Assembly (NCBI GenBank): GCA_947627215.1 | Contig: CANQVD010000031.1 | Location: 1-42,790 of the forward strand | From: an uncultured Eisenbergiella sp. | Lineage (GTDB): Bacteria > Bacillota > Clostridia > Lachnospirales > Lachnospiraceae | Direction: 5' to 3' | DNA: 42,790 nucleotides | Shown here: positions 4,171 to 26,432 of the stretch, one piece after another | How positions within the stretch are numbered: the first letter of the stretch is position 1 | How the letters are laid out: each line of letters begins with the position of its first letter | Translations under genes and position numbers: made by a program | Notes under the pieces: generated by a model | What the model was told of the DNA's origin: nothing | The model's database searches: none | What the model saw: only the letters and a program-made list of their open reading frames with translations

Positions 4171-4199
4171 TTGCATCACCGCGACAACTGTGCTATACT
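4171..4199 (+). promoter_or_regulatory. cassette 1 promoter (TTGCAT-17-TATACT)
   Basis: -35 TTGCAT at 4171-4176 and -10 TATACT at 4194-4199 are 17 bases apart. It is the first of five near-identical promoters in this region. The leader after it (GATATTGTAAAAATTT, then GTGTATAATTATC) is conserved in the other copies and runs into the terminator at 4239. Confidence 0.8.
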
Positions 4200-4238
4200 G
4201 ATATTGTAAAAATTTCATTCCGTGTATAATTATCTTTT

Positions 4239-4269
4239 AGAGCAGACTTTCACAGCCTGCTCTTTTTTT
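4239..4269 (+). terminator. cassette 1 leader terminator, followed by ribosome site and mini-hairpin
   Basis: AGAGCAG at 4239-4245 pairs with CTGCTCT at 4257-4263 and runs into seven T residues. It lies only about 35 bases downstream of the expected transcription start, so it acts either as an attenuator or as the end of a small RNA. It is followed by AAAGGAGG (4283-4290) and a mini-hairpin GCCT-GAAA-GGGC (4292-4303) with no start codon near. Confidence 0.8.
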
Positions 4270-4371
4270 GTTTTAAAAAAAGAAAGGAGGCGCCTGAAAG
4301 GGCAGAGAAAAACACACGGATGGAACCGTAACTGTAAACAGCCCATCAGGGCAATGGAAAAGGAGAAACGT

Positions 4372-5310
4372 ATGGTAAACAAGGATTTCTATCCTACGCC
4401 TGCGGCGCTGCTGGATGCGGTCACTGCGGGAGTGAGGTGGGAAGCTCTCGGAACGGTCCTGGAACCGGAAGCGGGCATGGGCGACATCGTCGAGTATGTC
4501 ATGAAGAGATACCGGATGCGCACAGACTGTGAGCTGGATGTGGACTGCGTTGAGCTGGATCCCGCCCTGCAGAAGATCCTGCGGCAGAAAGGATACCGGC
4601 TGGTGCACGATGATTTCCTGACGTATCAGACGCATAAGCAGTACGACCTGATCATCATGAACCCGCCGTTCTCCAACGGCGCCGCTCATCTGACAAAGGC
4701 ACTGCAGATGCAGGAAGACGGCGGAAACATCATCTGTATCCTGAACGCTGAGACGATCCGCAATCCATGGACGAACGAGAGGAAGGCACTGGTGACCCGG
4801 CTGGGTCAGCTGAACGCCCAGATCTCTTACATGGAGGGCGGATTTGTTCATGCAGACCGGCCTACAGACGTGGAGATCGCGGTGGTCAAAGTCTCAGTGC
4901 CGAAGATAGTCAGATTCCAAACTAAGAAGGAGTTTGATAAGTTCCGTTGGAAGACAGCCGCTGAGGCATACCTCATTTGGCAGAAGAAACAATACCTAAA
5001 GCTGCCGTCAGCCGAAAAGAGACCGACAGCGGACGTCCGGTACGATATGCGTCAGTATCACTTCCACCGGTACAATACGGAAGAATACCTGGATCGAGCC
5101 GTTCTCAGAGACATGTCCACCAACGGGGAGACAGTGGAGTTCTCCATTCCCTGGAAAAAGGACCTCCGGATCGATGATGTGATCGACAAGAGCGGTTATA
5201 TCATCCTGTTCCACCAGGAGGACCTCAAAAAGAAAGCGAATATGCTCAGAGCGGAGCGCAGTAAATCAGGCAGATGCCCTGAAGAAAGGAGATGTTATGA
5301 AAAGCAATGA
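4372..5310 (+). CDS. class I DNA methyltransferase (YPTP/NPPF type) with C-terminal domain shared with the next gene
   Basis: Probable SAM-dependent DNA adenine methyltransferase. FYPTP at residues 6-10 is the usual opening of plasmid and phage methylases of this kind; motif I reads EPEAGMGD (31-38) and catalytic motif IV NPPF (97-100). ATG 4372 is preferred because AGGAG lies six bases upstream; ATG 4354 in frame has a poorer site. Residues about 190-290 are clearly homologous to residues 117-226 of the following protein (both have YLIWQ, QYLK, then RY and VSLRD or AVLRD blocks), so an accessory domain is fused here. No cognate restriction enzyme is adjacent. First gene behind cassette 1. 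Confidence 0.75.
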   Translation: MVNKDFYPTPAALLDAVTAGVRWEALGTVLEPEAGMGDIVEYVMKRYRMRTDCELDVDCVELDPALQKILRQKGYRLVHDDFLTYQTHKQYDLIIMNPPFSNGAAHLTKALQMQEDGGNIICILNAETIRNPWTNERKALVTRLGQLNAQISYMEGGFVHADRPTDVEIAVVKVSVPKIVRFQTKKEFDKFRWKTAAEAYLIWQKKQYLKLPSAEKRPTADVRYDMRQYHFHRYNTEEYLDRAVLRDMSTNGETVEFSIPWKKDLRIDDVIDKSGYIILFHQEDLKKKANMLRAERSKSGRCPEERRCYEKQ

Positions 5311-6277
5311 GATCACCAGGGAGCTCCTGCAGAAATGCAGGGGCGCCTTTGTGGACCTGCACTTCATGTACGGGTTCGATTTTGAGAAGCCTTTCGGCAT
5401 TACCAGCGTGGAGGGTTCTTTCACAGTCGCGAAGGTCATGAAAGCTGCCGCTGCTGCGGGGCCGAAGTCCGGTGTCAGTTACATACCGGGACATCAGGTC
5501 CTCGTACTGATCACCTACTCGGATGATTGGAACGGCTTCCTGACAGCAGCTGTTGCGTATGGGAAGGTGAAGATCGAAGAACGCCCGGTTCCCGGATACC
5601 ATTGGGACAAGCGTAAACTGGCACAGTTTTATAACAAGAGTCAGTTTGAGGAAGTCCGCAAGAAACTTTGGGGAAGGGACAAGACCTACCTCATCTGGCA
5701 GGATGTGCAGTACCTGAAGATCCCCCCTCTCGAAAAGGAGCCGACGGAATACGGCAGATATGAGCTGATCACCCCATATGTCACCGTCTTTATGGCCATG
5801 TCATATGTGGAGCGCGTGTCCCTTCGGGATAAGTCCTCTAAGGGTGAGCTGATCGAGTTCAGCCTCCCGCTGGGCTTTGCCGGCGCACACGATCCTTCGG
5901 AGATCATCGACCGGAGCGGGAACCTCATCTATCCTCACCGCTCGGAGCTGAGACGCAGGGCGGCGCAGAATAAGAGGGAGCACGACCGTCAGGAGTTCCT
6001 CGCGACCGACCACAGCGGCAAGGTGGAGGAACTGCAGAGGCTGGCCGCTGAATGGAAAACCAAGATTCTGAAGGACCTCGCGGCCGCAGAGACAGGCGAA
6101 CAACTGAAAAGCGCTGCGGAAGAACTGTCACGCTGGAAAGGGCTGACCGGCTCCGTACTCGACCTGGAGTTTTTCAGGGATAAGGTACAGGGAAAGCAGT
6201 TCAGCAGCAACGCAGAGTGCGAGCAGTTCTATCAGCGAATACGTGGACAGCTCACGGCCTGGAGACAGGCTGTGTGA
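5297..6277 (+). CDS. hypothetical protein sharing the C-terminal domain of the adjacent methyltransferase
   Basis: A 326-residue protein of unknown function, overlapping the methyltransferase gene by 14 bases with GAAAGGAG before its ATG. Residues 1-110 match nothing I recognise. Residues 117-226 align with the C-terminal part of the upstream methylase (YLIWQDVQYLKIPP against YLIWQKKQYLKLPS, DRSGNLI against DKSGYII). Residues 230-300 are charged and probably helical or coiled coil. The shared domain and tight coupling suggest that both proteins act on the same substrate or complex, with this one lacking the catalytic domain. Confidence 0.6.
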   Translation: MKSNEITRELLQKCRGAFVDLHFMYGFDFEKPFGITSVEGSFTVAKVMKAAAAAGPKSGVSYIPGHQVLVLITYSDDWNGFLTAAVAYGKVKIEERPVPGYHWDKRKLAQFYNKSQFEEVRKKLWGRDKTYLIWQDVQYLKIPPLEKEPTEYGRYELITPYVTVFMAMSYVERVSLRDKSSKGELIEFSLPLGFAGAHDPSEIIDRSGNLIYPHRSELRRRAAQNKREHDRQEFLATDHSGKVEELQRLAAEWKTKILKDLAAAETGEQLKSAAEELSRWKGLTGSVLDLEFFRDKVQGKQFSSNAECEQFYQRIRGQLTAWRQAV

Positions 6278-6381
6278 GCTGGGAACGTTCCTCAAACAAA
6301 AAAACTGAATAGGGAAAAAGCGGTAGGCGCCGCAGGAAAAAGAAAGGAGAAGGGCTGAAGGAGAAAGGAGTAACAGCAACA

Positions 6382-6942
6382 ATGGCAGATCTGGCATTCC
6401 GCTTCCGCACAAACTATTTCCATGTCATGGACGTGCCCGCGTTCCTGCGCCTCATGCGCACCGCCGACTTCACTCTGGAAAATTCCAAGCTTTGGCTGGC
6501 ACGCGGACCGAAAGGCGATGCCGTCTATGCTTTTGGTTCTGAAGAGGGCATTCTTTCCGATTGCACGGACAATGCCGTCATCCTGCTCTCCAAATATGGG
6601 TATCGGGAAGATTTCCCCATCCGGGACAACGATGAGAAATGGTCCGAGTACAACAGCAGGCTCAGCGAATGGTGTAAAGCCAACGAGATCGACTTCGGAG
6701 CCTGCGAATATGCGGAGTATGACGAGGCATCCAAATCACTGATCGAACAGCTCCAGAAACTGCTCCCCATGGATGATCTTATCGTCATCACCGAGATCGG
6801 CTGTCAGAAACTCCAGTACCTCTGGGGAGATGTGCAGGTCATCACCCGCACGGACGTCCAATATGTTTCCTTGGAATCCGCCGCACGGGACATGTGTGAG
6901 AAGATGATGGAGTCTCAGAACAGGACCAAAGTGGACAACTGA
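6382..6942 (+). CDS. hypothetical protein, 186 residues
   Basis: Last gene of the cluster behind cassette 1. It starts with MADLAFRFRTNYFHVMD after AAAGGAG with an 11-base spacer. The protein is acidic, without signal peptide or membrane segment, and I do not recognise the family. A central acidic stretch (residues 95-120) and a hydrophobic LIVITEIG strand near residue 135 suggest a compact soluble protein. No terminator follows; cassette 2 begins 18 bases after the stop. Confidence 0.55.
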   Translation: MADLAFRFRTNYFHVMDVPAFLRLMRTADFTLENSKLWLARGPKGDAVYAFGSEEGILSDCTDNAVILLSKYGYREDFPIRDNDEKWSEYNSRLSEWCKANEIDFGACEYAEYDEASKSLIEQLQKLLPMDDLIVITEIGCQKLQYLWGDVQVITRTDVQYVSLESAARDMCEKMMESQNRTKVDN

Positions 6943-6959
6943 GCGCTCGAACAAAACAG

Positions 6960-6988
6960 TTGCGCCATTAGAACGTCTGTGGTATACT
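6960..6988 (+). promoter_or_regulatory. cassette 2 promoter (TTGCGC-17-TATACT)
   Basis: -35 TTGCGC at 6960-6965 and -10 TATACT at 6983-6988, spaced 17. The downstream leader (TATTGTAAAAATTTT, GTGTATAGTTTTC) matches cassettes 1, 4 and 5. Confidence 0.8.
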
Positions 6989-7028
6989 GTTATTGTAAAA
7001 ATTTTATCCCGTGTATAGTTTTCTTTTA

Positions 7029-7059
7029 AGAGCAGACTTTCATAGCCTGCTCTTTTTTT
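7029..7059 (+). terminator. cassette 2 leader terminator, followed by ribosome site and mini-hairpin
   Basis: AGAGCAG (7029-7035) pairs with CTGCTCT (7047-7053) and is followed by a T-run. AAAGGAGG (7072-7079) comes next, then ACCC-GAAA-GGGT (7081-7092), a perfect four-pair stem with a GNRA tetraloop. Bases 7093-7198 hold no gene that I can support. Confidence 0.8.
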
Positions 7060-7198
7060 ATGCAAAAAAGGAAAGGAGGCACCCGAAAGGGTAAACAGGA
7101 AAACAGGACACGGATTCCCGCTATGGGAGATAAGCAACTGTCAATGACCACACTGGTCAACGCGATTTCAAAGGGGCGAGACTCCGGAAAGGAGGAGC

Positions 7199-7447
7199 AT
7201 GATCTCAGATCCGATCACGATCACGAGCTTCAGCGAGGACAACCGTTCCCGCACAATCAAGAACAGCATGTACCGCATCTGCCGTACGGAGACAGGTGTC
7301 TGGTACATCAAGGAAGTGTACAACAATCCCGCAACGGGATCCTTCGCGATCGGCAGTGATTTTCACTGCAGGTCCCTGCGCAGGGTGATTAACCAGATCA
7401 ACCGGTTCAAAAAGGAGAAGGAGATCGTTTCGAGGAAGATCGGCTGA
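7199..7447 (+). CDS. small basic hypothetical protein, 82 residues
   Basis: ATG at 7199 follows AAAGGAGG at a short spacer, which decides this frame over an overlapping longer frame beginning near 7124. The protein opens with MISDPITITSF and ends in a Lys/Arg-rich tail (RFKKEKEIVSRKIG). The mix of short beta-like segments (YRICRTETGVWYIKEVYN) and basic C terminus would suit a nucleic-acid binding role, but no family was recognised. First gene behind cassette 2. Confidence 0.55.
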   Translation: MISDPITITSFSEDNRSRTIKNSMYRICRTETGVWYIKEVYNNPATGSFAIGSDFHCRSLRRVINQINRFKKEKEIVSRKIG

Positions 7448-7472
7448 AGGGCCGAAGAAAGGAGCTTTTATC

Positions 7473-8090
7473 ATGGAAGAAAGAAAGATAGTCAAGATCA
7501 CTGCAGGGAACGGCTACGTCGGGTTTCGGACCGCGGGCAGGAAGCACAGGTCGCCGCACATGTTCTACATGTCTGCACTGCGGCTGTCACAACTGGACAA
7601 GGGAGGGATCACCGTAAACGATATCCGTTCCTTCGCACAGGTATACCTGCGGTCAGCGAACACGGCAGAGATCCGGTTCACATGGTTGAACCAGCAGTGC
7701 TGCGAGAACGTCGCGGGCTATGTGGAGACGGTCTGCATTGACTACGCGGAGCTGAAAGAAATGGTCGAGATCAGCCTGGAAGGCGGCTCGGCGCAAAAGG
7801 TCCTGCTGGCAAGGGCAGAAAAAGCCCCGGCTCCCGCACTGGATTTTTCGGGTGCAGTGGATGAGCTCCATGACGTTCTGTCGGTGCCGGAAACCCGGAG
7901 GGCACTCTCAAAGGCCCTGCGCGATAACTTCAAGTGGTACGGTGCCAGGAGCATTCAGTTCTTTCCCGATTGGGATAAGTCCTTTGCGTTCCGTGAGGTA
8001 CGGATGGATGGGACTTACGGCATCAACGGCGGGCTGATCCTGCAGGAGAACACCAAGAAGAGCGGCTGGCGCTATCAGGTGCACACCTGA
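7473..8090 (+). CDS. hypothetical protein, 205 residues
   Basis: Starts MEERKIVKITAGNGYVGF after AAAGGAG; 25 bases separate it from the gene before. No signal peptide, membrane segment or catalytic motif is visible. The middle (residues 115-145) is helical and acidic; the C-terminal third (KWYGARSIQFFPDWDKSFAF) is aromatic-rich. It is followed by the conserved GGGCC hairpin that precedes the repeat-protein gene. Function unknown. Confidence 0.55.
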   Translation: MEERKIVKITAGNGYVGFRTAGRKHRSPHMFYMSALRLSQLDKGGITVNDIRSFAQVYLRSANTAEIRFTWLNQQCCENVAGYVETVCIDYAELKEMVEISLEGGSAQKVLLARAEKAPAPALDFSGAVDELHDVLSVPETRRALSKALRDNFKWYGARSIQFFPDWDKSFAFREVRMDGTYGINGGLILQENTKKSGWRYQVHT

Positions 8091-8114
8091 ACGATGACAG
8101 CTGCAAAAGTGAAG

Positions 8115-8135
8115 GGGCCTGCGGGAAGCGGGCCC
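8115..8135 (+). promoter_or_regulatory. ribosome-site-proximal GGGCC hairpin, copy 1
   Basis: GGGCCTGC (8115-8122) pairs with GCGGGCCC (8128-8135), including one T-G wobble, and is followed by AGAAAGGA and the ATG at 8154. Two further copies at 10406 and 11776 have the same shape and flanks with compensatory changes. Confidence 0.6.
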
Positions 8136-8153
8136 AGAAAGGAAAATGAGAGA

Positions 8154-8600
8154 ATGAACAAAAAATACGCAACTGTTGAAAACACAACAACGGAACATAT
8201 GGATCCCCAGGTGGTCGCTGCGGGCGACCACGGTACTGCCGCCGCTGCGGGCGATTTCGGATCCGCCACTGCGGGCTATGATGGGACCGCTGCCGCGGGC
8301 GATATGGGGACAGCCACAGTGGGCGAACGCGGGACTGCCATTGCCGGCTATAAGGGAAGTGCCACAGCAGGCGATTTCGGATCTGATGTTGCCGGCGAGA
8401 ACGGAGCCGCCACCAGCAGGGGACGGTCAGAGACCGGCAGGAACGGTCTTTCAGTTGCACGTGGGGTAGGATGCCGCGTAAAAGGCGGCATGGGCGCGCT
8501 CCTCGTGATCGGAGAAGAAAGGGAAAGCGACGAACTCGCCGCATGGAAAGCCGCAGTAGTGGATGGTCAACTTCTCACGACTAAAGTCGCGAGCTTGTGA
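8154..8600 (+). CDS. octapeptide-repeat protein with 3' end replaced by the IscB element
   Basis: A short paralogue of the repeat protein at 10440. It lacks the N-terminal DUF7666 domain, starting instead at MNKKYATVENTTTEHMDP, which aligns with the TTTEHTDP that precedes the repeats of the paralogue. About eight units of the pattern xATAGxxG follow (8211-8405), with one unit one residue longer. The conserved tail SRGRSETGRNGLSVARGVG and LAAWKAAVVDG then matches the paralogue until base about 8567, where the sequences diverge and nine unrelated residues (QLLTTKVAS and L) run into the IscB left hairpin. The original C terminus is not found after the element. Function unknown. Confidence 0.6.
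   Translation: MNKKYATVENTTTEHMDPQVVAAGDHGTAAAAGDFGSATAGYDGTAAAGDMGTATVGERGTAIAGYKGSATAGDFGSDVAGENGAATSRGRSETGRNGLSVARGVGCRVKGGMGALLVIGEERESDELAAWKAAVVDGQLLTTKVASL
8211..8405 (+). repeat. 24-bp coding repeats (about 8 units)
   Basis: In-frame 24-base units encoding [S/T]ATAGxxG-type octapeptides within the short paralogue. The units diverge in bases but keep Gly and Ala positions. Confidence 0.75.
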
Positions 8601-8792
8601 CAAAGGTTACTTTTGGTTACAGGCAACCGATTTTGTCGTGGGAAGCCGAGCAGAGACATTGGAACCGGATGGTGCCCCGGCACCTACCACTGGAGATTGA
8701 CGACAAGATTTCCACCCTGGGATGTAGCCGGTCCAAGTCTATGACAACCTTACGGGGAGCAATCCCCGACTACTCACTTAAAGGAGTACGCA
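8572..8792 (+). ncRNA. putative omega-RNA of IscB
   Basis: This 220-base gap directly upstream of iscB, on the same strand, is where omega-RNA is encoded in known IscB loci. It has no open frame and is rich in stems: the end hairpin, GGTT/AACC around 8605-8630, TTGTCGT (about 8632) with ACGACAA (about 8700), GGTGC-CCCG-GCACC, and CGGGG-AGCAAT-CCCCG just before the iscB ribosome site AAAGGAG. By family rule the guide would be the bases immediately 5' of it (about 8550-8570), from the interrupted repeat gene. Exact ends are inferred. Confidence 0.6.
8574..8593 (+). repeat. left-end hairpin of the IscB element
   Basis: CTCACGACT pairs with AGTCGCGAG across a two-base loop with one mismatch. It shares CGACTAAAGTC with the right end. 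Confidence 0.65.
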
Positions 8793-10319
8793 ATGGATAA
8801 CAAGGATTATTATGTATATGTTCAGGCACCGGACGGGACGCCGCTCATGCCGACCAGAAAATACGGCTGGGTGCGCAAGGCGCTGAAAAGCGGGAGGGTA
8901 CGCATAGTTGCGTCCCTGCCGTTCACGGTCCAACTGAATTACGAACCAAAGGCGAGGGCGACACATCCGGTCACCCTCGGGATCGACCCAGGCAGGACGA
9001 ACATCGGGCTTGCCGCCGTGACGGATGACGGGACATGCCTGTATGCCGCCGAATGCGGGACCCGCAATAAGGATATCCCGAAACTGATGGCGGAGCGAAG
9101 ATCCCATCGGCAGGTGTCCAGGAGGGGAGAACGCCTCGTGCGGAAGCGCCGCGCAAGGGCTCATGGGACTGTCATGCGGCGGGGACAGGCGGAACGACTT
9201 CTCCCGGGATGTGAAACGCCCGTTACCGTAAAGGACATCATCAATACGGAGGCGCGGTTCAACAACCGGAAGAGGCTGGACGGTTGGCTGACCCCGACGG
9301 CAAGGCAGCTGCTGCAGACACATGTGAACCTTGTACGCAAGATCATGAAGATCCTTCCGGTCACCCGGATCTGCCTGGAGCTGAACCGGTTCGCCTTCAT
9401 GGAACTGGAGGCCGGCGGGAGGCTGAAGGACCGCGCGGAATACGTCAGAGGCCCCATGCATGGCTATGCGGACGAGAAGGAGGCGCTTAACGCCATCCAG
9501 GGCGGGAAGTGTCTTTTATGCGGGAAACGGCCAATCGAGGCATTGCACCATTTATATGCAAGGCACAGGAATGGAAGCGACACGCTTGCGAATAAAGCGG
9601 GCCTGTGCAGACAGTGCCATGACAGGGTGCATAAGGACAGAGAGGCCGCCGCAAAGCTCAGAAATATCAAAGCCGGGCTGCGCAAGGAATACGGCGCACT
9701 GTCCGTGCTGAATCAGATCATCCCGTACCTGGCGGAGGAACTTTCCATCATGATGGGAGGCAGCCTGTCAGTCACGGCGGGATGGAAGACGAAGGAAGCC
9801 AGGGAAGCCATGGGCGCGGAAAAGGAACATTACGTGGATGCGTACTGCATCGCCGCAGGAGCCGTGGCCGCGGTATGCAGGGACAACAGCCGAAAGGTCC
9901 CTGGCAGGTGTTTCCACATCCGTCAGTTCCGCAGGCAGGACCGCCAGCTTATCAACAACCAGAGGGAACGAACCTATTATCTGGACGGCAAAGAGATTGC
10001 CAAAAACCGCAGAAAACGGTTCGAACAGAAAGGCGATGCGCTGTCGGACTGGTACGCCGCAGCCTGCAAAACGTACGGAACCCAGGCTGCTGAGGCCATG
10101 CGTTCCCGTATGACGGTCAGGAAAAGCGTGAGGCGTTATAACAATCCCAAAAGGCTGCTGCCAGGTTTCATAATCAGGTATAAGGGCCAGAGATGCGTGG
10201 TTACCGGACAGCGGACGAATGGGCAGTACTATCTCAGCCCGGATATGCCGGGGATCAACATCCCTGCCAGGCAGGCTGAGATACTTGCCGGAAATATGGG
10301 ATTGGTATATGTTGCTTAA
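8793..10319 (+). CDS. iscB: IscB RNA-guided nuclease (PLMP, RuvC, HNH domains)
   Basis: A 508-residue IscB, the transposon-encoded family related to the ancestor of Cas9. Domains in order: N-terminal PLMP domain (PLMP at residues 17-20); RuvC-I GIDPGRTNIG with Asp65; arginine-rich bridge helix (about 98-130); RuvC-II CLELNRF with Glu196; HNH domain 235-285 with CxxC at 240/243, HH at 252-253 and a second CxxC at 272/275; RuvC-III HYVDAYCIAAG with His346 and Asp349. All catalytic residues appear present, so both nuclease centres should work. It would cut DNA guided by the omega-RNA encoded just upstream. ATG follows AAAGGAG. The C-terminal 140 residues presumably recognise the target-adjacent motif and RNA. 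Confidence 0.92.
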   Translation: MDNKDYYVYVQAPDGTPLMPTRKYGWVRKALKSGRVRIVASLPFTVQLNYEPKARATHPVTLGIDPGRTNIGLAAVTDDGTCLYAAECGTRNKDIPKLMAERRSHRQVSRRGERLVRKRRARAHGTVMRRGQAERLLPGCETPVTVKDIINTEARFNNRKRLDGWLTPTARQLLQTHVNLVRKIMKILPVTRICLELNRFAFMELEAGGRLKDRAEYVRGPMHGYADEKEALNAIQGGKCLLCGKRPIEALHHLYARHRNGSDTLANKAGLCRQCHDRVHKDREAAAKLRNIKAGLRKEYGALSVLNQIIPYLAEELSIMMGGSLSVTAGWKTKEAREAMGAEKEHYVDAYCIAAGAVAAVCRDNSRKVPGRCFHIRQFRRQDRQLINNQRERTYYLDGKEIAKNRRKRFEQKGDALSDWYAAACKTYGTQAAEAMRSRMTVRKSVRRYNNPKRLLPGFIIRYKGQRCVVTGQRTNGQYYLSPDMPGINIPARQAEILAGNMGLVYVA

Positions 10320-10350
10320 ACTGGATTCAGGGAGTTATCAAAACCAAAAC

Positions 10351-10396: not shown

Positions 10397-10405
10397 TTCG
10401 TGAAA

Positions 10406-10426: not shown

Positions 10427-10439
10427 GGAAAGGAATGAA

Positions 10440-19574: not shown

Positions 19575-19575
19575 A

Positions 19576-20226: not shown

Positions 20227-21115
20227 GCTTGCCAAATTGGAAGATGGAAGCATTAATTTAGTGATAACAAGTCCGCCGTTCGCTTTGCAAAGGAAAAAAG
20301 CCTATGGAAATGAAGAGCAGGATAATTACGTTAATTGGCTGTGCCAATTTGCCAGATTAGTGTTTCAGAAATTAAGAGATGATGGCAGCTTTGTAATTGA
20401 TATAGGAGGTGCTTATGAAAAGGGTGAACCTTCATATAGCTTATATCAGTTTAGAGTACTTATTAAAATGGTCGATGAAATTGGATTCAAATTGGCGCAA
20501 CCCTTCTATTGGCATAACCCATCAGCGTTACCGGCGCCAATCGAGTGGGTGAATAAGAGAAAATTAAGAGCAAAAACGTCTGTAAATACTGTCTGGTGGC
20601 TTTGCAAAAATCCGCGGGAGTGCAGAGCGGATGTACGTAAAGTTCTAACACCTTATTCATGTAGAATGCAGAATCTTATTGTTCATCCGGAAAGTTATAT
20701 AAAAGGCCCGAGTGTAGAACGTCCTTCCGGGCATGTTCTAACGATTGATTCATGGGCCAAGAATAATGGAGGTGCAATTCCGCCAAATATGCTGCGGTTT
20801 CCTAATAGTGAAAGTAATAGTCAGTATCTTCGCTATTGCAAGAAATGGGGCGTAAAAGGGCACCCTGCCAGGTTTCCAATGGCGCTGCCAGAGTTCTTTA
20901 TAAAGTTCCTAACTGATGAAGGTGATTTAGTTGTAGATATATTTGGCGGTAGTAATACTACCGGAATGACAGCTCAGGGACTTGGAAGACGATGGAAGTC
21001 CTTTGAATTGTCACAAGAATATGTTGCAGCTTCTGTGTTCAGATTTGCAAAAGGTGAAGATGAAGCAAAAAGACTGTATGAAGAAATACTAGGTGGCAAA
21101 GAGGTTGTATTATAA
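20171..21115 (+). CDS. orphan DNA methyltransferase of the PvuII/SmaI type (probable N4-cytosine)
   Basis: A 314-residue beta-class methyltransferase: catalytic motif IV SPPF at 34-37 near the N terminus, SAM motif FGGSNTTG at about 258. Segments TSPPFALQRKKAYGN, SFVIDIGGAYEKGEPSYSLY, FYWHNPSALPAP, NTVWWLCKNP, NGGAIPPN and HPARFP match what I know of the M.PvuII/M.SmaI group, which makes N4-methylcytosine. No restriction gene or C-protein gene is adjacent. The DNA is clearly richer in A+T than its neighbours, with ATA and TTA codons, which points to separate acquisition. Confidence 0.85.
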   Translation: MSGYSTDLGQCICGDSLDELAKLEDGSINLVITSPPFALQRKKAYGNEEQDNYVNWLCQFARLVFQKLRDDGSFVIDIGGAYEKGEPSYSLYQFRVLIKMVDEIGFKLAQPFYWHNPSALPAPIEWVNKRKLRAKTSVNTVWWLCKNPRECRADVRKVLTPYSCRMQNLIVHPESYIKGPSVERPSGHVLTIDSWAKNNGGAIPPNMLRFPNSESNSQYLRYCKKWGVKGHPARFPMALPEFFIKFLTDEGDLVVDIFGGSNTTGMTAQGLGRRWKSFELSQEYVAASVFRFAKGEDEAKRLYEEILGGKEVVL

Positions 21116-21230: not shown

Positions 21231-21259
21231 TTGCACCACAACAAGATCAGTGGTATACT
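21231..21259 (+). promoter_or_regulatory. cassette 4 promoter (TTGCAC-17-TATACT)
   Basis: -35 TTGCAC at 21231-21236 and -10 TATACT at 21254-21259. From the -10 on (GATATTGTAAAAATTT) it is nearly identical to cassette 1. Confidence 0.8.
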
Positions 21260-21299
21260 GATATTGTAAAAATTTAATTCAGGTGCATAATTTTCTTTA

Positions 21300-21331
21300 A
21301 GAGCAGACTTTCACAAGCCTGCTCTTTTTTT
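21300..21331 (+). terminator. cassette 4 leader terminator, followed by ribosome site and mini-hairpin
   Basis: AGAGCAG (21300-21306) pairs with CTGCTCT (21319-21325), then T residues. AAAGGAGG (21345-21352) and mini-hairpin GTCCT-GAGA-AGGGC (21354-21367) follow; GAGA is again a GNRA loop. Confidence 0.8.
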
Positions 21332-21423
21332 GTTTAAAAAAAAGAAAGGAGGAGTCCTGAGAAGGGCAGAAAAACAGAAAAGTGTGCACCATTTCACCCC
21401 AAAGTGGGAGAAAGGGAAAACTA

Positions 21424-21636
21424 ATGAAGAGCAGGCATATTTGCCCGTGTTGTGGGAACACAGAGAGGTTTATTACTACAGCACACGTCGTGCAGTCATG
21501 GATTGTTGACGGGGAAGGTAATTTCATCGAGGAACTCTCCACAGATGAGACTTTGGCTGAGCCCGATGATGACAACGTCTGGACCTGCGAGAAGTGCGGC
21601 GCAGAGGCAGTAGCCGTGAAAGGAGGAGAAAAATGA
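21424..21636 (+). CDS. small zinc-ribbon-like protein, 70 residues
   Basis: ATG 21424 follows GAGAAAGGGAAAACTA; an in-frame GTG at 21382 is less likely. Two cysteine pairs, CPCC near residue 6 and CEKC near residue 57, could bind one zinc ion across an acidic middle. Similar small zinc-ribbon proteins are common in mobile elements, with unknown targets. It overlaps the next gene by four bases. First gene behind cassette 4. Confidence 0.55.
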   Translation: MKSRHICPCCGNTERFITTAHVVQSWIVDGEGNFIEELSTDETLAEPDDDNVWTCEKCGAEAVAVKGGEK

Positions 21637-22517
21637 GCATTTATGAGAAGTTTGCGGAACTCGCAAAGAAACAGGATACGTTCGTCTTAAAAACAGAAGA
21701 CAGGGAAAATGCCTGGACTGTTATGTCGCATCCGTATGGACCCAGGGGCAGGGTGTATTACGCCGCCGATATGAAGATCATGGATGGCGGTAGGGACTAT
21801 ATCCCGTGTCTGGGACGTGCTCCGATCATGGCCGCAGTAAAGGCGGATGACCGGGTGTATTTCAAAAATGCGCCCTTTGGTCAGGCAGAAGATATCCCTC
21901 TCCTCGAAGATGTGCTGGAAGAGTTGGCGCAGAAATGCTGGGAATGCCTTCTTGTGAAGATTCCTGACCGCGGGGAAGCTGAAGAGGAGCAGGACAATAA
22001 CGACAAATACGCTTATTTCCGCGCACGAGAATGTCTGATCAAGGGGATTCAGCCTCAGCGGTTATGGTTCTATGCATCCAAGGATATAGACCTGCTTGGA
22101 AACATCCTTGTCGGGAACCTGTCGGTTGAAGCTGCTGTTGACAATGAAATAGCAAGATTGCATCGGGGACCTTTAAGTAAGGTTGCCCCTGAAGGACAGG
22201 TCATCGACTATCGAAAGACTATGCGGTATTTCAATGATCCGGATCTGCTCCAGCCGTGGGAGAAGGAACTCGCCGCTTCCATACGCGGACGCGAGAACAG
22301 GACATTTGAAGTCCACTTAGCGAAAGAGGGCGGTACGGCTGTAGTCCGGGTGAAGGGAGCGCTACTGATGCATGCGATCCACTTCAATATTTCCAACATT
22401 ATCACAGACTTCTGTGATGCGGATGGAAACCTGATAGCGGGGGTGGACAGACACTGCGGATGCGATGATATCACGCAGGTACTGTACCACAAAATCGTAG
22501 TTTATTCCCGGCAGTAA
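21633..22517 (+). CDS. hypothetical protein, 294 residues
   Basis: ATG 21633 after AAAGGAGGAGAAAA, overlapping the upstream stop. Opens MSIYEKFAELAKKQDTFVL. No signal or membrane segment. The N-terminal third has a beta-rich pattern, the middle is acidic (EAEEEQDNNDKYAYF), the end contains hydrophobic strands and a CGCDD cluster. I do not recognise it. The gene lies in a tightly packed run of unknown genes behind cassette 4. Confidence 0.55.
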   Translation: MSIYEKFAELAKKQDTFVLKTEDRENAWTVMSHPYGPRGRVYYAADMKIMDGGRDYIPCLGRAPIMAAVKADDRVYFKNAPFGQAEDIPLLEDVLEELAQKCWECLLVKIPDRGEAEEEQDNNDKYAYFRARECLIKGIQPQRLWFYASKDIDLLGNILVGNLSVEAAVDNEIARLHRGPLSKVAPEGQVIDYRKTMRYFNDPDLLQPWEKELAASIRGRENRTFEVHLAKEGGTAVVRVKGALLMHAIHFNISNIITDFCDADGNLIAGVDRHCGCDDITQVLYHKIVVYSRQ

Positions 22518-22546
22518 GCCGGAGAGAAAAAAGGAGGAGAAAAACC

Positions 22547-23248
22547 ATGTTGTTTGTTTATTATGAACTTTATTACGACGATGCTCACAAGAGCGAGAAT
22601 GTCCAGGACTTTTCCAACCTGAAAGAGTTCGAAGACTGGATCTTCAGGCAGATGAGACAGAAGTACTCGGAGGACGGAAAGTGCATTCACATGTATTTCC
22701 CGACCGATGAGCCGACCTGTTTCCGGTTCACGCCGTCCAGCGACGGCGCCGGATATAAGATCTTCATGATCCGCGGTGAGAACGGCATCATCTACTCGGA
22801 TGGAACCGCCACGAACGGGGTCAAGTTCTGGACAAAGGAAGTGCGGGAGTGGCTGAAAGATTGTAAAGAAAGGCAGAGTTGCCCGACCTTCGATTTCGCT
22901 CCTGAAGATAGTGAAGAGCCGAAGCCGAAGCCGATGAACGAATCCCGGGATTGGCATCTGGTGATCGAAGATTATTCCGATCCTACCGATGTGGCCGTGT
23001 ATGACTTCCTGACAGCCCATCCCAATGAATCGGAAAGCATGGATGCGTTGACCGAAGTGATCAAGGAGTACCTGCAGACCCATGAAAACGCGGATCCCGA
23101 TGCGCTGATGTATGACTGGCACGACTTCCAGTATTTCAGCGAAAGCATCCCGGCTGATCTCTACGCGAAGCATGGGCTTCGTCCAGTGACCAGCGATACG
23201 CAGATCTCCACGGTTGACGGCAGCAGCATCATCAGCTTCGCGGAGTGA
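22547..23248 (+). CDS. hypothetical acidic protein, 233 residues
   Basis: ATG after AAAGGAGGAGAAAAACC. The protein opens MLFVYYELYYDDAHKSEN and has an acidic Pro-rich linker at about residue 125 (PEDSEEPKPKP) that separates two domains; the second contains YDWHDFQYFSE. No known motif. It is highly acidic overall and cytosolic. Confidence 0.55.
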   Translation: MLFVYYELYYDDAHKSENVQDFSNLKEFEDWIFRQMRQKYSEDGKCIHMYFPTDEPTCFRFTPSSDGAGYKIFMIRGENGIIYSDGTATNGVKFWTKEVREWLKDCKERQSCPTFDFAPEDSEEPKPKPMNESRDWHLVIEDYSDPTDVAVYDFLTAHPNESESMDALTEVIKEYLQTHENADPDALMYDWHDFQYFSESIPADLYAKHGLRPVTSDTQISTVDGSSIISFAE

Positions 23249-23260
23249 GAGGAGGATCCG

Positions 23261-23641
23261 ATGGAACTCTACAAGTTCGTGCAGGAACTGGACCAGAACG
23301 CATTGGACGAACAGAGGCTCGCCCTTCAGGAGCTCATCGACAACGGCAGTGCCGAGCGGAGGCCCTTGGAAGGGATCATGTGCCTTCTGAACAATCTGAG
23401 CGATATGCACCGGCTCCTGCAGCTCGATCCGGTATGGTACGAGGAATTTTGGAGCATGCAGGACCTGTATGACGCCATTGATGCCGTCTGCGAGGATGCG
23501 GATGAGTATCAGATCACGAAGGAGGACATGGAAAAGCTGAAAGCGGCTGCGGAACAGGAGGACACTATCAAGAACCTGACCGCCCGCTGCACTGCCCTCG
23601 AAGACCTTGCCGAGCGTGTTGTCTTTGGCAGGGAAGAGTGA
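23261..23641 (+). CDS. hypothetical acidic helical protein, 126 residues
   Basis: ATG after GAGAGGAGGATCCG, twelve bases beyond the previous stop. Helical throughout (MELYKFVQELDQNALDEQ, then TARCTALEDLAERVV at the end), strongly acidic, without signal or motif. Function unknown; operon partner of its neighbours. Confidence 0.5.
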   Translation: MELYKFVQELDQNALDEQRLALQELIDNGSAERRPLEGIMCLLNNLSDMHRLLQLDPVWYEEFWSMQDLYDAIDAVCEDADEYQITKEDMEKLKAAAEQEDTIKNLTARCTALEDLAERVVFGREE

Positions 23642-23682
23642 TCTGCAGGGACTGCGGAAAAAAGCAAGACTGAAAGGAGGAT

Positions 23683-23707
23683 GCGCGGCGGACATGTTCT
23701 GCCGCGC
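23683..23707 (+). promoter_or_regulatory. hairpin between ribosome site and start codon
   Basis: GCGCGGCGGA (23683-23692) pairs with TCTGCCGCGC (23698-23707). It lies between AAAGGAGG (23673-23680) and ATG 23716, which are otherwise too far apart; folding would bring them to about fifteen bases. Confidence 0.55.
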
Positions 23708-23715
23708 GAAAATTT

Positions 23716-24381
23716 ATGAAGAAAGAAGAAAGAGCAGAGCTCATCGGCCGTCTGATCGATGTCGTGGAGGATTGGCTGACCGACAAGACAGGCGATGAGG
23801 ATACCGTTTTCATCCAGGGCGCGGATCATGACATCCTGGCGGAGAAATTTGCAGTGGCTCTCGGCCTGGACGAGGACGACGGGAAAGCACAGGAACCGCT
23901 GACTGCTGATACCCCTCTGGGGCAGCTCATCGCCTATCCGTCCAACAACTCGGAAAACCCGGGGATCTATATCGATCTTCACAGGGACACTTTTGACTGC
24001 GATGCTCCGCTTGCGCTCATTGAGTATACGTCTACCGAGGCAGACGTAGAAGGCGGCACCCTGATCACCCGGGTATGGAGCGATGTCAGCCAGGAGGATT
24101 ATTCCGACCGCCATATCCATACCGGCGTGGAGGAGTTCTTCGACGCTCCGGTCAACCGGTATTTCTATACCTTCGGTTCCGATCCCGGGTTCCCCTTCAA
24201 CGGCGGCTATGTTGAGGTGCATGCGGCAACTCTGCAGAAGGCGCATGAGAAGTTCCGGAAAAAATATCCGGATCGGCACAAGAAATGCATCAACTGCGCG
24301 TTCTTCTATACGGAGGAACAGTGGGAGAAGACAGAAATGTCGAAGATGGAGGGATATAAACGCCACGAGGTCATCGAGTAG
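23716..24381 (+). CDS. hypothetical protein, 221 residues, with CxxC near the end
   Basis: Opens MKKEERAELIGRLIDVVED. The only nearby ribosome site is AAAGGAGG on the far side of the hairpin at 23683, so initiation may depend on that fold. The C-terminal part, with FGSDPGFPFNGGYVEV and a KKCINCAFF zinc-like pair, looks like a domain I have seen in proteins of Firmicute mobile elements, but I cannot name it. Acidic and cytosolic. Confidence 0.55.
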   Translation: MKKEERAELIGRLIDVVEDWLTDKTGDEDTVFIQGADHDILAEKFAVALGLDEDDGKAQEPLTADTPLGQLIAYPSNNSENPGIYIDLHRDTFDCDAPLALIEYTSTEADVEGGTLITRVWSDVSQEDYSDRHIHTGVEEFFDAPVNRYFYTFGSDPGFPFNGGYVEVHAATLQKAHEKFRKKYPDRHKKCINCAFFYTEEQWEKTEMSKMEGYKRHEVIE

Positions 24382-24395
24382 GGAGGAGCGAGGAG

Positions 24396-24668
24396 ATGCA
24401 GAAAAAAGAATTCTGGCAGGGCGGAGCAGAAATGAACCCGCAGAAGTTCAGATGCATTCGGGACTATTCCGAGTGCATCAAGGCAGAGCGTGACGCGCTC
24501 ACCGGACGGCTGATGGCGACGAAGTTTGCGCTGGCATTCCGCAGAGGCGCTGAATATGACCTGATCCGCCAGACCGGAACAGCCTATGTCCTGCGAAACG
24601 AACAGGGAAGCGAGACCGAGTTCGATGTCAAGGTAATCGATAACTTTTTTGAGACACCGGTTTGTTGA
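24396..24668 (+). CDS. small hypothetical protein, 90 residues
   Basis: ATG 24396 after GGGAGGAGCGAGG; ATG 24432 in frame lacks a better site. Opens MQKKEFWQGGAEMNPQKF, with a helical middle and a beta-like end (TAYVLRNEQGSETEFDVKV). No family recognised. Confidence 0.5.
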   Translation: MQKKEFWQGGAEMNPQKFRCIRDYSECIKAERDALTGRLMATKFALAFRRGAEYDLIRQTGTAYVLRNEQGSETEFDVKVIDNFFETPVC

Positions 24669-24685
24669 GCAGGAATCGAAGCATA

Positions 24686-24705
24686 CCGGCGCCTTACGGC
24701 GCCGG
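24686..24705 (+). promoter_or_regulatory. hairpin directly before a ribosome site
   Basis: CCGGCGCC (24686-24693), loop TTAC, GGCGCCGG (24698-24705), then GGAAAGG and ATG 24719. Same arrangement as the GGGCC hairpins but a different stem. Confidence 0.55.
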
Positions 24706-24718
24706 GGAAAGGATAGAA

Positions 24719-24958
24719 ATGAGAAAATATTATAAGCTTCAGCTCGCAAAGGGCAATGCAAATGAATATACTTCCGACTGTGAGATGTGCATCATCGGAA
24801 CAAGGGAGCCGACACCGGCGGAAGCAACAAGGTTTTGTCAGAACAGCTTGCTTTTGCTGGGCTATGATTTTGTATCGAAGGTTTCGCCTATAACATATGA
24901 AGAGGCGCATTCGTCGTTCGACATGGCAAATGAGGATCTCTTCCCTGTGTTTTGCTGA
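24719..24958 (+). CDS. small hypothetical protein, 79 residues
   Basis: ATG 24719 after GGAAAGGATAGAA. Opens MRKYYKLQLAKGNANEYTSD; a GTREPTPAEATRFCQ stretch and an acidic end follow. No motif recognised. It precedes the DpnD/PcfM-like gene by 14 bases. Confidence 0.55.
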   Translation: MRKYYKLQLAKGNANEYTSDCEMCIIGTREPTPAEATRFCQNSLLLLGYDFVSKVSPITYEEAHSSFDMANEDLFPVFC

Positions 24959-24972
24959 GGAAAGGAGAAAAA

Positions 24973-25194
24973 ATGCTCTTTTCTGTTGAGATCAAAGAAA
25001 CGACTGCGATCACGGTCCTGGTCGAGGCCGGGAGCCGTGAAGAGGCAGTCCTGAAGACCGACAAGCAGTACAACAACGGCACCACGCCGGATATCATGGA
25101 CTTTCTGGAATATTCCATCGGAATCTCCCAGATGGCGAATCCGGACGGGACCGCGACGGATGTGCAGCGGAAGATGCTTCCGATGCTGGACTGA
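24973..25194 (+). CDS. DpnD/PcfM-like protein, 73 residues
   Basis: ATG 24973 after AAAGGAGAAAAA. The pattern VEIKETTAITVLVEAGSREEA followed (beyond this excerpt) by a YNNG turn agrees with the short DpnD/PcfM C-terminal domain, found on conjugative plasmids and transposons. Its biochemical role is not established. Support is by pattern only, so another small alpha/beta protein is possible. Confidence 0.55.
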   Translation: MLFSVEIKETTAITVLVEAGSREEAVLKTDKQYNNGTTPDIMDFLEYSIGISQMANPDGTATDVQRKMLPMLD

Positions 25195-25209
25195 AAGAAA
25201 GGAGGTACT

Positions 25210-25230
25210 GGAGGGGTGTCTTACCCCTCC
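25210..25230 (+). promoter_or_regulatory. hairpin over the translation start
   Basis: GGAGGGGT (25210-25217), loop GTCTT, ACCCCTCC (25223-25230). It lies between AAAGGAGGT and ATG 25240, and overlaps the alternative start GTG 25216, so folding would decide which start is used. Confidence 0.5.
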
Positions 25231-25515
25231 AGAAATGAGATGAATACGATATTTTTTGTATTTGTCTTTACGGCAGTAATCCTATGCTTCCAGATAGCCG
25301 GATGCAAATGGGCCTTATATGCCGGGACTGCGGCCGGCGCGATGATGGAGGCTGTCACCCTGGCTTACGCCCTCGCCCTGCAGGGCAGGGGGATAGGCAT
25401 GTGGGGCATGTCCTGGCTCACCGCCGGACTGATCCTGCTCGCGGGATCCGTACTTGGGATTCTCAGGACAGGGTCAGGGAGCAGCACTTCGGAGCCTGAT
25501 GAGGGGAAAGACTGA
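25216..25515 (+). CDS. small membrane protein with two to three helices
   Basis: GTG 25216 lies nine bases after AAAGGAGGT; ATG 25240 eight codons later is the alternative. Hydrophobic segments at about residues 11-28, 30-55 and 63-82 (FFVFVFTAVILCF, WALYAGTAAGAMMEAV, WLTAGLILLAGSVLGIL) make this an integral membrane protein with an acidic cytosolic tail. It is the only membrane protein in its cluster. Function unknown. Confidence 0.6.
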   Translation: MSYPSRNEMNTIFFVFVFTAVILCFQIAGCKWALYAGTAAGAMMEAVTLAYALALQGRGIGMWGMSWLTAGLILLAGSVLGILRTGSGSSTSEPDEGKD

Positions 25516-25571
25516 AAACAGCCTGCAGGCTATATTCCTGTGGGCGATTTGTGCAGAAAGGGGGAAAAATA

Positions 25572-25901
25572 ATGAAAGAAAAACTGATCAGCACCGTAAT
25601 GGAGCAGATGCGAGTATGGGGATTTCCCAACACAACCGCTCCTGAATATTTTGCCGAATGGTTCAGCGCTATGAGCCGCCGTCGCCTTGTCCCTGGCAAC
25701 AGGATGACCGCATTTATGGCGATCATCGCCTGCGGGACATTTTTTGAGACGGAAGACGACAGTTGGTCATTCGAAATGCCCACAGTCAAGGACTGTGTAA
25801 AGGCATGGAAGGAAGTTCGCAAAAACTTCAAAAAGGCCGAGTATGTGATCTCCGCTGTCGATAAGGACCACACATTGAGAAGTATCCCCGTGTGGGCCTG
25901 A
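25572..25901 (+). CDS. hypothetical protein, 109 residues
   Basis: ATG 25572 after AAAGGGGGAAAAATA. Helical protein opening MKEKLISTVMEQMRVWGF, with a short basic stretch (WKEVRKNFKKAEY). No recognised domain. A strong terminator follows 17 bases later, closing the cassette 4 operon. Confidence 0.55.
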   Translation: MKEKLISTVMEQMRVWGFPNTTAPEYFAEWFSAMSRRRLVPGNRMTAFMAIIACGTFFETEDDSWSFEMPTVKDCVKAWKEVRKNFKKAEYVISAVDKDHTLRSIPVWA

Positions 25902-25918
25902 AAAAAGTTTGTGGAAAA

Positions 25919-25949
25919 GGGCGCTTTCTTCGGAAGGCGTTCTTTTTTT
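25919..25949 (+). terminator. rho-independent terminator
   Basis: GGGCGCTTTC (25919-25928), loop TTCG, GAAGGCGTTC (25933-25942), ten pairs including wobbles, then seven T residues. Confidence 0.9.
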
Positions 25950-25982
25950 GGACATTTCTGCCGCAAGATCCGAAGAATTTTC

Positions 25983-26011
25983 TTGCCTTCAAAAGGCTCG
26001 TGTGGTATACT
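25983..26011 (+). promoter_or_regulatory. cassette 5 promoter (TTGCCT-17-TATACT)
   Basis: -35 TTGCCT at 25983-25988 and -10 TATACT at 26006-26011. The leader reads CATATTGTAAATAAATTTT and GGGCATAGTTTT, a diverged copy of the common leader. Confidence 0.8.
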
Positions 26012-26051
26012 CATATTGTAAATAAATTTTATCAAGGGCATAGTTTTTTTT

Positions 26052-26085
26052 AGAGCAGTTACTTTTTGTAGCTGCTCTTTTTTTT
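26052..26085 (+). terminator. cassette 5 leader terminator, followed by ribosome site and mini-hairpin
   Basis: AGAGCAGTTAC pairs over eleven positions (one wobble) with GTAGCTGCTCT around a TTTTT loop; eight T residues follow. AAAGGAGG (26097-26104) and mini-hairpin GGCTG-ATGAAA-CAGCC (26107-26122) come next; here the loop holds the start codon of the following gene. Confidence 0.8.
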
Positions 26086-26111
26086 GTCCCGAAAAGAAAG
26101 GAGGACGGCTG

Positions 26112-26432
26112 ATGAAACAGCCACAAAAACAGAATAACCCTGCGGACAGCAGGAGAGTGTTCGGGGTCCCGTGCGATGTGTTTCCCTATTACGCGCAGGC
26201 CCTGAATTTTTTTGGAGTCCGGCGGTATGCCCTGACCCAGGATCAATCCGGCTGTCGGCTCATGGCCGATATTTCCGGAAGAACTTATCGGAGGGTCGAG
26301 AGGAAAGCGAAAGCGCTTTTGCACTCCGATAAAGGCAACATGCGGTTTCTCACCCGCGATGATATCGACGAGAACGTCTCAGGGGTCATTCTTGCGAGCG
26401 AGAAGATCTTTTTTGAAAGGGCAGTATTGTAA
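26112..26432 (+). CDS. hypothetical basic protein, 106 residues
   Basis: The start ATG lies in the loop of the cassette 5 mini-hairpin, seven bases after AAAGGAGG, so folding could gate its translation. Opens MKQPQKQNNPADSRRVFGV; a central basic helix (RRVERKAKALLHS) suggests contact with nucleic acid. Not recognised. First gene behind cassette 5. Confidence 0.55.
   Translation: MKQPQKQNNPADSRRVFGVPCDVFPYYAQALNFFGVRRYALTQDQSGCRLMADISGRTYRRVERKAKALLHSDKGNMRFLTRDDIDENVSGVILASEKIFFERAVL

Follow-up and report, generated by a model that had tools for sequence, protein, structure and literature searches.

A repeated promoter, leader and terminator cassette before many operons of a putative large mobile element in an uncultured Eisenbergiella, with a predicted helix closing behind the terminator

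What might be served by a terminator that lies a few tens of nucleotides behind a promoter, when the same arrangement recurs before one accessory gene cluster after another? To our knowledge, little has been learned of the way in which large conjugative elements of gut Clostridia coordinate their many unrelated accessory genes. The question is raised by contig CANQVD010000031.1 (C31) of an uncultured Eisenbergiella sp. of the Lachnospiraceae (assembly GCA_947627215.1), a stretch of 42,790 nucleotides that we refer to as the window. An initial annotation of its sequence had proposed five copies of a promoter-leader-terminator cassette. Direct reading and measurement located all five (w1 to w5; copies elsewhere are named by contig and position), with the -35 box TTGCNN at 4171, 6960, 17241, 21231 and 25983. 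We found that the cassette does not end with its terminator hairpin (P2). Behind it follow a Shine-Dalgarno (SD)-like sequence, GAAAGGAGG, mostly without a gene start at reading distance, and a small hairpin (P3), and a long-range helix (P1) joins the leader to sequence further downstream; these features had escaped the initial annotation. The three-helix structure is well supported over the set of copies. Our preferred reading, which we put forward tentatively, is that the cassette is an attenuator whose read-through product is a folded, probably stabilized 5' untranslated region (UTR) common to many operons of a large mobile element. The landmarks of the five window cassettes are as follows.

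4171..4325, plus strand: cassette w1, with -35 box 4171-4176, -10 box 4194-4199, leader block 4222-4233, P2 terminator hairpin 4239-4263 and T-run to 4269, GAAAGGAGG 4282-4290, P3 4292-4303, and P1 arms 4214-4225 and 4314-4325 (shuffle p 0.018).
6960..7113, plus strand: cassette w2, with -35 box 6960-6965, -10 box 6983-6988, leader block 7011-7022, P2 7028-7054 and T-run to 7059, GAAAGGAGG 7071-7079, P3 7081-7092, and P1 arms 7009-7023 and 7099-7113 (shuffle p 0.020).
17241..17402, plus strand: cassette w3, with -35 box 17241-17246, -10 box TACAAT 17264-17269, leader block 17293-17304, P2 17315-17337 (different stem) and T-run to 17343, GAAAGGAGG 17355-17363, P3 17365-17376, and possible P1 arms 17293-17305 and 17389-17402 (shuffle p 0.066, singly not significant).
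21231..21390, plus strand: cassette w4, with -35 box 21231-21236, -10 box 21254-21259, leader block 21283-21294, P2 21299-21326 and T-run to 21331, GAAAGGAGG 21344-21352, P3 21354-21367, and P1 arms 21282-21295 and 21377-21390 (matched by 0 of 500 shuffles).
25983..26122, plus strand: cassette w5, with -35 box 25983-25988, -10 box 26006-26011, leader block 26036-26047, P2 26052-26078 (11 bp, different stem) and T-run to 26084, GAAAGGAGG 26096-26104, P3 26107-26122, an ATG at 26112 after GAAAGGAGG, and no convincing P1 (shuffle p 0.38).

Exactly 17 bases separate the -35 and -10 boxes in all five, the latter being TATACT in four and TACAAT in w3; the sequence of this spacer varies among copies. 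The leader carries the blocks ATTGTA(A/G) and G(T/G)G(C/T)ATA(A/G)TT, followed by the hairpin with its T-run and then by GAAAGGAGG. If transcription is taken to start 7 nt past the -10 box, the hairpin begins at about 33-39 nt, near the start as had been claimed and slightly nearer than the 35-45 originally given. The cassette measures about 150 bp, with a GC content of 0.35-0.38 in the five window matches as against 0.53 for the whole window. Simple promoter and hairpin scanners did not list the cassette promoters or the hairpins of w1 and w2; the promoter scanner needs at least 9 of 12 matches, and these two hairpins, which do appear in minimum-energy folding, carry a 1x1 mismatch.

To learn how far the cassette extends beyond the window, we searched its own 4.03 Mb genome. 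With w4 as query, three other window copies were recovered at E 1.8e-39, 2.5e-25 and 2.3e-15, w3 matched through its 3' part alone (E 1.7e-7), and a further four copies appeared on another contig, C3. A covariance model built from ten copies (R1) gave 14 matches at E < 1e-3, five on C31 and nine on C3 (two of 108 contigs), and nothing else up to E = 1 among the 150 scored of 1,948 first-look candidates. Every copy on a given contig points one way. GAAAGGAGG is exact in 12 of these 14 copies, C3_117k having GGAAGGAGG and C3_9k GAGAGGAGG. Seven further copies, none of them used in training R1, lie on contigs C47 and C82 of a Clostridia assembly from rabbit gut (G433): six match R1 at E <= 1e-4, and the seventh, on C47, is weaker (28.4 bits). 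No GAAAGGAGG lies behind the terminator in C47:16050 or in C47:19950, which is close to the end of its contig, and C82:4154 has GAAAGGAGT. The assembly was reached through a pattern scan of a genome collection that returned three stretches, two on one 20 kb rabbit contig and a third from goat colon (20.4 bits with R1); this pattern is strict and missed w1 itself. Copies outside the locus, named beforehand as a test of the proposal, thus exist both on C3 (nine) and in the rabbit assembly (seven). Over all 21 copies the landmarks keep their spacing, the YATAAT hexamer of the leader block following the end of the -10 box by 23-29 nt in every one, and a GAAAGGAGG-type sequence following the end of the T-run by 0-12 nt in 18 of the 20 copies that have one.

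The two assemblies also share genes. C47 encodes relatives of C31 and of C3 proteins, a sign that C31 and C3 may be the same kind of element, and C82 encodes relatives of C3 proteins, the main matches having roughly 30-80% identity. Three pairs of cassettes could be regarded as counterparts: w1 and C47:2616, which each precede a gene for a methyltransferase-like protein (64% over 178 residues); C3_8k and C82:4154, each before a protein, the two proteins being 59% identical; and w4 and C47:16985, by common gene neighborhood only. In all three pairs, identity to the counterpart (0.63-0.65) is below that to the best paralogue, which is 0.71-0.80 among the Eisenbergiella copies and 0.88-0.92 among the rabbit copies. 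Mean cassette identity is 0.56 within the Eisenbergiella genome, 0.74 within the rabbit assembly and 0.59 between them, and in the cassette tree C3_139k groups with rabbit copies and C47:12799 among Eisenbergiella copies; together, these values and the mixed tree indicate that homogenization within an element is only partial.

The enlarged set allowed us to assess each helix. For P2, where the initial annotation had noted that stem bases differ and pairing is kept, the larger alignment bears this out: among 19 aligned copies, 91.2% of cells pair and each of the eight pairs shows changes in both partners. For all 12 pairs together, covariation was 0.557, compared with 0.199 (standard deviation 0.025) for shuffles, none of 500 reaching it, and fell to 0.10-0.18 when the partner was slid by 1-3 columns, in an alignment that was fitted to the structure and is biased towards it. 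In the same alignment, 67-69% of cells in the P3 columns pair. The data support a selected structure for P2, a predicted intrinsic terminator, and covariation in a larger alignment was the second of the tests named beforehand that the proposal has passed. In most copies, 0-2 nt separate P3 from GAAAGGAGG; over 18 of the 21 copies (R47_16.0, R47_19.9 and C3_117k excluded), the first 24 nt have a mean energy of -5.5 kcal/mol versus -1.2 kcal/mol for mononucleotide shuffles (0 of 300).

P1 pairs the part of the leader that immediately precedes and enters the YATAAT block with a downstream segment, some 18-40 nt past GAAAGGAGG. Since MAFFT left its 3' arm unaligned, it was tested by permutation rather than by alignment, on 19 of the 21 copies (R47_16.0 and R47_19.9, without GAAAGGAGG, were dropped). 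The mean duplex energy was -12.2, compared with -8.8 (standard deviation 0.54) when arms were re-paired among copies, and 0 of 20,000 permutations reached the observed mean; the 14 Eisenbergiella copies alone also gave 0 of 20,000, and the five window copies alone 183 of 20,000. A scan of 348 window pairs, covering the sequence from about 110 nt before the block to about 100 nt past GAAAGGAGG, ranks P1 windows first to fourth (z -5.2 for P1), and the fifth pairs sequence upstream of the -35 box with the leader block (z -3.5). Examples of its arms are TCCGTGT/ACACGGA in w1, TTTTCCAGAT/ATCTGGAAAA in C3_158k, CATAATTTTC/GAAAATTATG in C3_8k and AGGTGCATAA/TTATGCACCT in C47:12799.

The same scan bears on the idea that the cassettes are promoters acting in single-stranded DNA, as described for Frpo in the leading region of F (PMC11541004, in the part of that paper available to us). 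Operons in one orientation that include genes for SSB, methyltransferases and nucleases would suit such a role. However, between windows at least 21 nt apart the -35/-10 windows have no covarying partner, reaching z -1.7 at most as against the value for P1, and the promoter hexamers are ordinary ones at 17 bp, so that we give this explanation only an outside chance. Control at the DNA level is another conceivable design, in which the leader blocks would be a protein operator, like the Reg operators of EGeRS2 on p576, and the terminator only an insulator. One repressor over several operons is the known EGeRS2 design (PMC8708921, as far as the accessible text goes), but to the eye the blocks form no palindromes, the part of the leader that varies does so in concert with a distant segment, and G-U pairs are commoner in the P1 duplexes on the plus strand (29 of 210) than on the other (16 of 218), which is modest evidence; we regard DNA-level control as highly improbable.

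P1 and P3 both need RNA beyond the terminator and are thus features of read-through RNA only; as P1 joins the leader to sequence past the terminator, the read-through RNA itself appears to be a selected structure. The repeated cassette and the selected terminator structure of the initial annotation stand, and in this light its choice between small RNA and attenuation was too narrow. An open leader with an intrinsic terminator is a common arrangement among small RNAs. The cassette has both, and its read-through mRNA contains a site complementary to the leader, so a family of RNAs of about 60-70 nt, with the terminated transcripts as products whose single-stranded leaders pair in trans with P1-type sites, comes to mind. 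Yet this site is in cis and varies together with the leader of the same copy, and P3, GAAAGGAGG and the operon-heading position would be left unexplained; we consider such a family very unlikely.

In 11 of the 14 Eisenbergiella copies, the called gene (at least 60 amino acids) begins 43-94 nt past GAAAGGAGG; the called start behind w2 is doubtful, 7199 being likelier, and C3_137k, one of the 11, has by eye an ATG and a short open reading frame (ORF) right behind GAAAGGAGG. In w5, C3_139k and C3_9k, the gene begins directly after the SD, and P1 is not significant in these three.

In our preferred reading, a sigma-A-type promoter would start an RNA with the conserved YATAAT/TTTT leader block about 25 nt past the -10 box, and P2 would then halt basal transcription after roughly 60-70 nt. 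On read-through, the leader may pair beyond the terminator (P1) and P3 may form, yielding a three-helix 5' UTR. The start-less GAAAGGAGG could offer a seat for a 30S subunit, which together with the paired leader might shield the message from decay at its 5' end; most genes of the operons begin further downstream. Read-through would answer an element-encoded or element-state signal, as in the single switch suggested by the initial annotation. We read the UTR as probably stabilizing because a start-less SD that blocks RNase J1 is known: STAB-SD of cry3A mRNA is a non-initiating SD-like sequence in the 5' UTR whose bound 30S subunit blocks this nuclease (PMC4113751, from the available portion). 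The cassette would resemble it in having an SD-like sequence without a gene start in the 5' UTR, and differs in that GAAAGGAGG lies between terminator and hairpin, inside the long-range helix. If read-through is regulated, many operons could be switched together at a single post-initiation step, which would be a novel mechanism. In either case, the 14 copies on two contigs define a candidate regulon from sequence alone and yield a structured RNA with testable helices, and the cassette provides a handle on unannotated accessory genes.

Several observations weigh against this reading, which is built on sequence and predicted structure. Lying partly past the terminator, P1 and P3 cannot decide termination of the same transcript, and no conserved alternative hairpin was found upstream of it. 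No antiterminator was recognized among the domain matches listed for 40 window proteins, nor among the families listed for 78 of the 165 C3 minus-strand ORFs (the first 25 of 80 and of 350). A LoaP-type factor, a NusG paralogue encoded with its element, is unlikely here, as the sole NusG-family match in the genome lies on another contig, C2. Taken singly, only nine of the 19 copies have a P1 with shuffle p < 0.05 (w1, w2, w4, C3_158k, C3_126k, C3_8k, C3_128k, C3_13k and C47:12799); among the other ten, some keep a complement of 5-6 bases near the expected place, such as ACAGGT in C3_137k and CCCGTG in C82:4154. The five rabbit copies alone are not significant for P1 (1,482 of 20,000), P3 is nearly absent from C3_9k (-1.5), and the copies are not simply homogenized per element (0.56 within the Eisenbergiella genome versus 0.59 between it and the rabbit assembly).

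Some of these points are met by a constitutive insulator and stabilizer, in which the terminator blocks upstream read-through and passes a fixed fraction of its own transcripts with no dedicated antiterminator, and P1, P3 and GAAAGGAGG lengthen the life of the few transcripts that are completed. Such a device needs no unseen factor, and none was found; P1 can serve read-through RNA only; and precedents are reported in the accessible parts of two papers, terminator insulation for Tn916 (PMC11658703) and, for EGeRS1-B of pLS20, a block on transcription from upstream (PMC8708921). A strong terminator right behind one's own promoter would nevertheless be a costly way to fix a level, and the tight spacing from -10 to YATAAT and the conservation of the block would go unexplained. 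We judge this alternative somewhat unlikely.

That spacing is what a sigma-dependent pause with Q-like antitermination would account for: YATAAT would be a -10-like pause site at which a protein of the element loads, after which the polymerase ignores P2. The YATAAT-type hexamer lies right before the terminator in all 21 copies at the distance given above, and the cassette has the lambda Q arrangement, a promoter-proximal terminator with a -10-like element between, in form only. The Butyrivibrio megaplasmid pCY186 (NC_014390.1) adds four promoter-proximal terminators with a different constant block. Lambda Q binds between the -35 and -10 boxes, but the corresponding spacer of the cassette is not conserved; there is no candidate protein, and P1 and P3 would be superfluous to the model, which is distinctly unlikely in our estimate. 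Other kinds of control were discarded. A metabolite riboswitch or T-box found no match above threshold where Rfam was scanned, and no conserved leader hairpin was seen; a BglG-type site is at odds with a terminator sequence that is not conserved; and for a leader peptide, no common start codon follows GAAAGGAGG by eye.

Returning to the attenuator reading, we compared the cassette with described systems. The claim that no known RNA family matches has held: Rfam 15 gave nothing above the gathering threshold in the window (at w4, the best match below threshold was L20_leader, with 25.6 of 58.7 bits, E 0.0035), and only an RT-2 RNA far from any cassette in C3 1-140,000, the part of C3 that was scanned and that holds all but one of its cassettes. 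Among the papers listed on antitermination in conjugative elements, pCY186, leading regions and Lachnospiraceae RNAs, no such cassette appeared in titles and the beginnings of abstracts, with subscription papers mostly outside the set. The nearest known design is EGeRS of the pLS20 plasmid family, whose repeated copies stand before several variable operons (PMC8708921, which like the papers below is cited from its accessible part). As with EGeRS1 of pLS20, several similar copies per element, which is here putatively conjugative, each precede a different operon, with a predicted RNA or single-stranded DNA structure, and EGeRS1-B blocks transcription from upstream (PMC8708921). However, EGeRS1 is 420-750 bp long, has a GC content above that of its plasmid and lacks a sigma-A promoter (PMC8708921), whereas the cassette is about 150 bp and AT-rich, and combines a consensus-like promoter with a terminator and a start-less SD. 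EGeRS1 copies are said to group by plasmid with few exceptions (PMC8708921); among the cassettes, each one compared has a paralogue closer than its counterpart, but the mean identities show no clustering. EGeRS2 of p576 is similar in heading several operons with a promoter and short inverted repeats, which its authors suppose to lengthen RNA half-life, but it is defined by TTATCCC dual-motif operators flanking the promoter, for the ribbon-helix-helix repressor Reg (PMC8708921); by eye, the five window cassettes contain no TTATCCC dual motifs. With length, composition and promoter differing from EGeRS1, and repressor operators setting EGeRS2 apart, the cassette falls into neither class.

Antitermination is known in conjugative elements, namely conAn of pLS20 (PMC8955417) and canT of Tn916 (PMC11658703), and the likeness lies in operon-initial RNA elements and terminators of Gram-positive conjugative elements. 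According to the available text, conAn and canT precede the terminators that they overcome and serve conjugation genes, whereas the structure of the cassette is completed only behind the first terminator and is found at the head of many operons. The RNA that acts in cis ahead of the terminator in conAn, canT, EAR and put has no equivalent for P2, as P1 and P3 are completed later.

On pCY186, six motif-scan matches were obtained, four of which (at 3046, 54578, 168324 and 170289) consist by eye of a promoter, TTTAGTAGT and a terminator hairpin. The constant block differs from that of the cassette, and the minimum-energy fold clearly pairs the leader with post-terminator sequence in two of the four (by eye, in rough windows), which is no more than suggestive of an analogue unrelated in sequence. 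More speculatively, the cassettes may represent a class of self-gated, operon-heading RNAs of clostridial megaplasmids, with a terminator nested in a long-range helix, although we think this generalization unlikely as things stand. Were it true, only polymerases passing the terminator would build the 5' structure that secures the message, possibly modifying the polymerase, and one element-wide signal would free a dozen or more operons, for instance on entry into a new host. Analogues of unrelated sequence, perhaps those of pCY186, would make architecture rather than sequence the defining trait.

Outside the two assemblies, R1 found only isolated matches. Apart from the Eisenbergiella genome itself, 11 genomes of 397 at family level had a match at E <= 1e-3, nine of 392 at order level, and four of 391 at class level at E <= 1e-4; the three groups overlap, and the stricter filters used listed eight of the 14 Eisenbergiella copies. 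Each such genome had one match, of 35-52 bits, and these show that R1 E-values near 1e-4 are no proof. L036, L037, L040, L089, L094, L095 and, on pCY186, L111 lie by eye antisense to the start of a transposase gene, which we take to be IS1182-like, and were not counted. In the first six, promoter-like and terminator signals recur antisense to the transposase start, possibly an antisense RNA of that insertion sequence. The remaining weak matches were by eye single promoter-terminator-gene arrangements or ambiguous, and none was counted as a cassette, including L133, the best of them (52 bits, read only), and L038, which precedes a protein resembling, by eye, that of the gene behind C3_158k. BLAST searches with w4 found nothing in phages, only a 27-base match in 15 Lactococcus records among plasmids, and short matches (E about 6e-4) in two of 60 related genomes. 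Three pattern scans of viral contigs returned one, zero and nine stretches; the one had no model match at E <= 0.01, and the nine were gene ends before terminators or unrelated sequence, with 23.6-31.2 bits where the model matched. The genomes with long VirD4 relatives, G155 and G025, gave two weak matches and none, respectively, and pCY360, pART37 and pTHECO01 matched R1 only at E 0.16-0.94.

Domain scans of the genes after w1 to w5 agree with the original observation that each copy precedes a different gene set.

4372..6942, plus strand: behind w1, a methyltransferase-like protein (PF05175) and two proteins without Pfam match.
7199..17199, plus strand: behind w2 (operon limits undefined), unknowns, an IscB-type nuclease (8793-10319), DUF7666, a sortase, a DNA/RNA non-specific endonuclease and an SRAP peptidase.
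17430..21115, plus strand: behind w3, unknowns, a radical-SAM/4Fe-4S protein and a DNA methylase (PF01555).
21424..25901, plus strand: behind w4, seven scanned proteins, all without Pfam match.
26112..26883, plus strand: the first two genes behind w5, an unknown and a protein weakly resembling CdiA-CT RNase A-like domains (20.8 bits, cut-off 27).

The RNA-guided nuclease at 8793-10319 (plus strand) matches NF040563 above cut-off, and no guide RNA for it was found by Rfam at E <= 0.1 within 8300-10800. At 27628-27695 (plus strand), a terminator-like hairpin with GAAAGGAG stands directly before the ORF at 27691 with no cassette promoter or leader (17.5 bits, E 0.4), perhaps a cassette remnant or an ordinary terminator. 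Near the contig end, at 34628-41526 (plus strand), lie type I restriction-modification genes: hsdM, hsdS and an HsdR-like gene, the last below cut-off.

As for the host element, C31 1-4017 carries fatty-acid and electron-transfer genes and looks chromosomal, the mobile element seeming to start after it. C3, of 164 kb (164,354), encodes a VirD4-type coupling protein, an ATPase of type II/type IV secretion system type and an actin-like protein just under its family cut-off, and among the families listed are topoisomerase III, SSB, YqaJ, UvrD, RecG and NrdD. These genes suggest a conjugative element, probably a megaplasmid or an integrated one. Relatives of a protein encoded close to the ATPase (C3 82912-84906) occur on 25 plasmid records, of which the ten listed are 149-543 kb in size, with the best relative on pCY186 (37.5% over 93%); VirD4 relatives in 2,700 plasmid records are all below 60% identity. 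For the gene behind C3_8k, there was no plasmid match and, by pattern search, no viral relative; nor was a viral relative found for the sortase. The RT-2 RNA (RF03077, 85 bits) lies on the minus strand of C3, at L013:7707-7925. Finally, two C3 ORFs at 57136-58275 and 146284-147423, presumably TnpB-like, have identical first 24 residues, which suggests recent movement of the IS605 type within the element.

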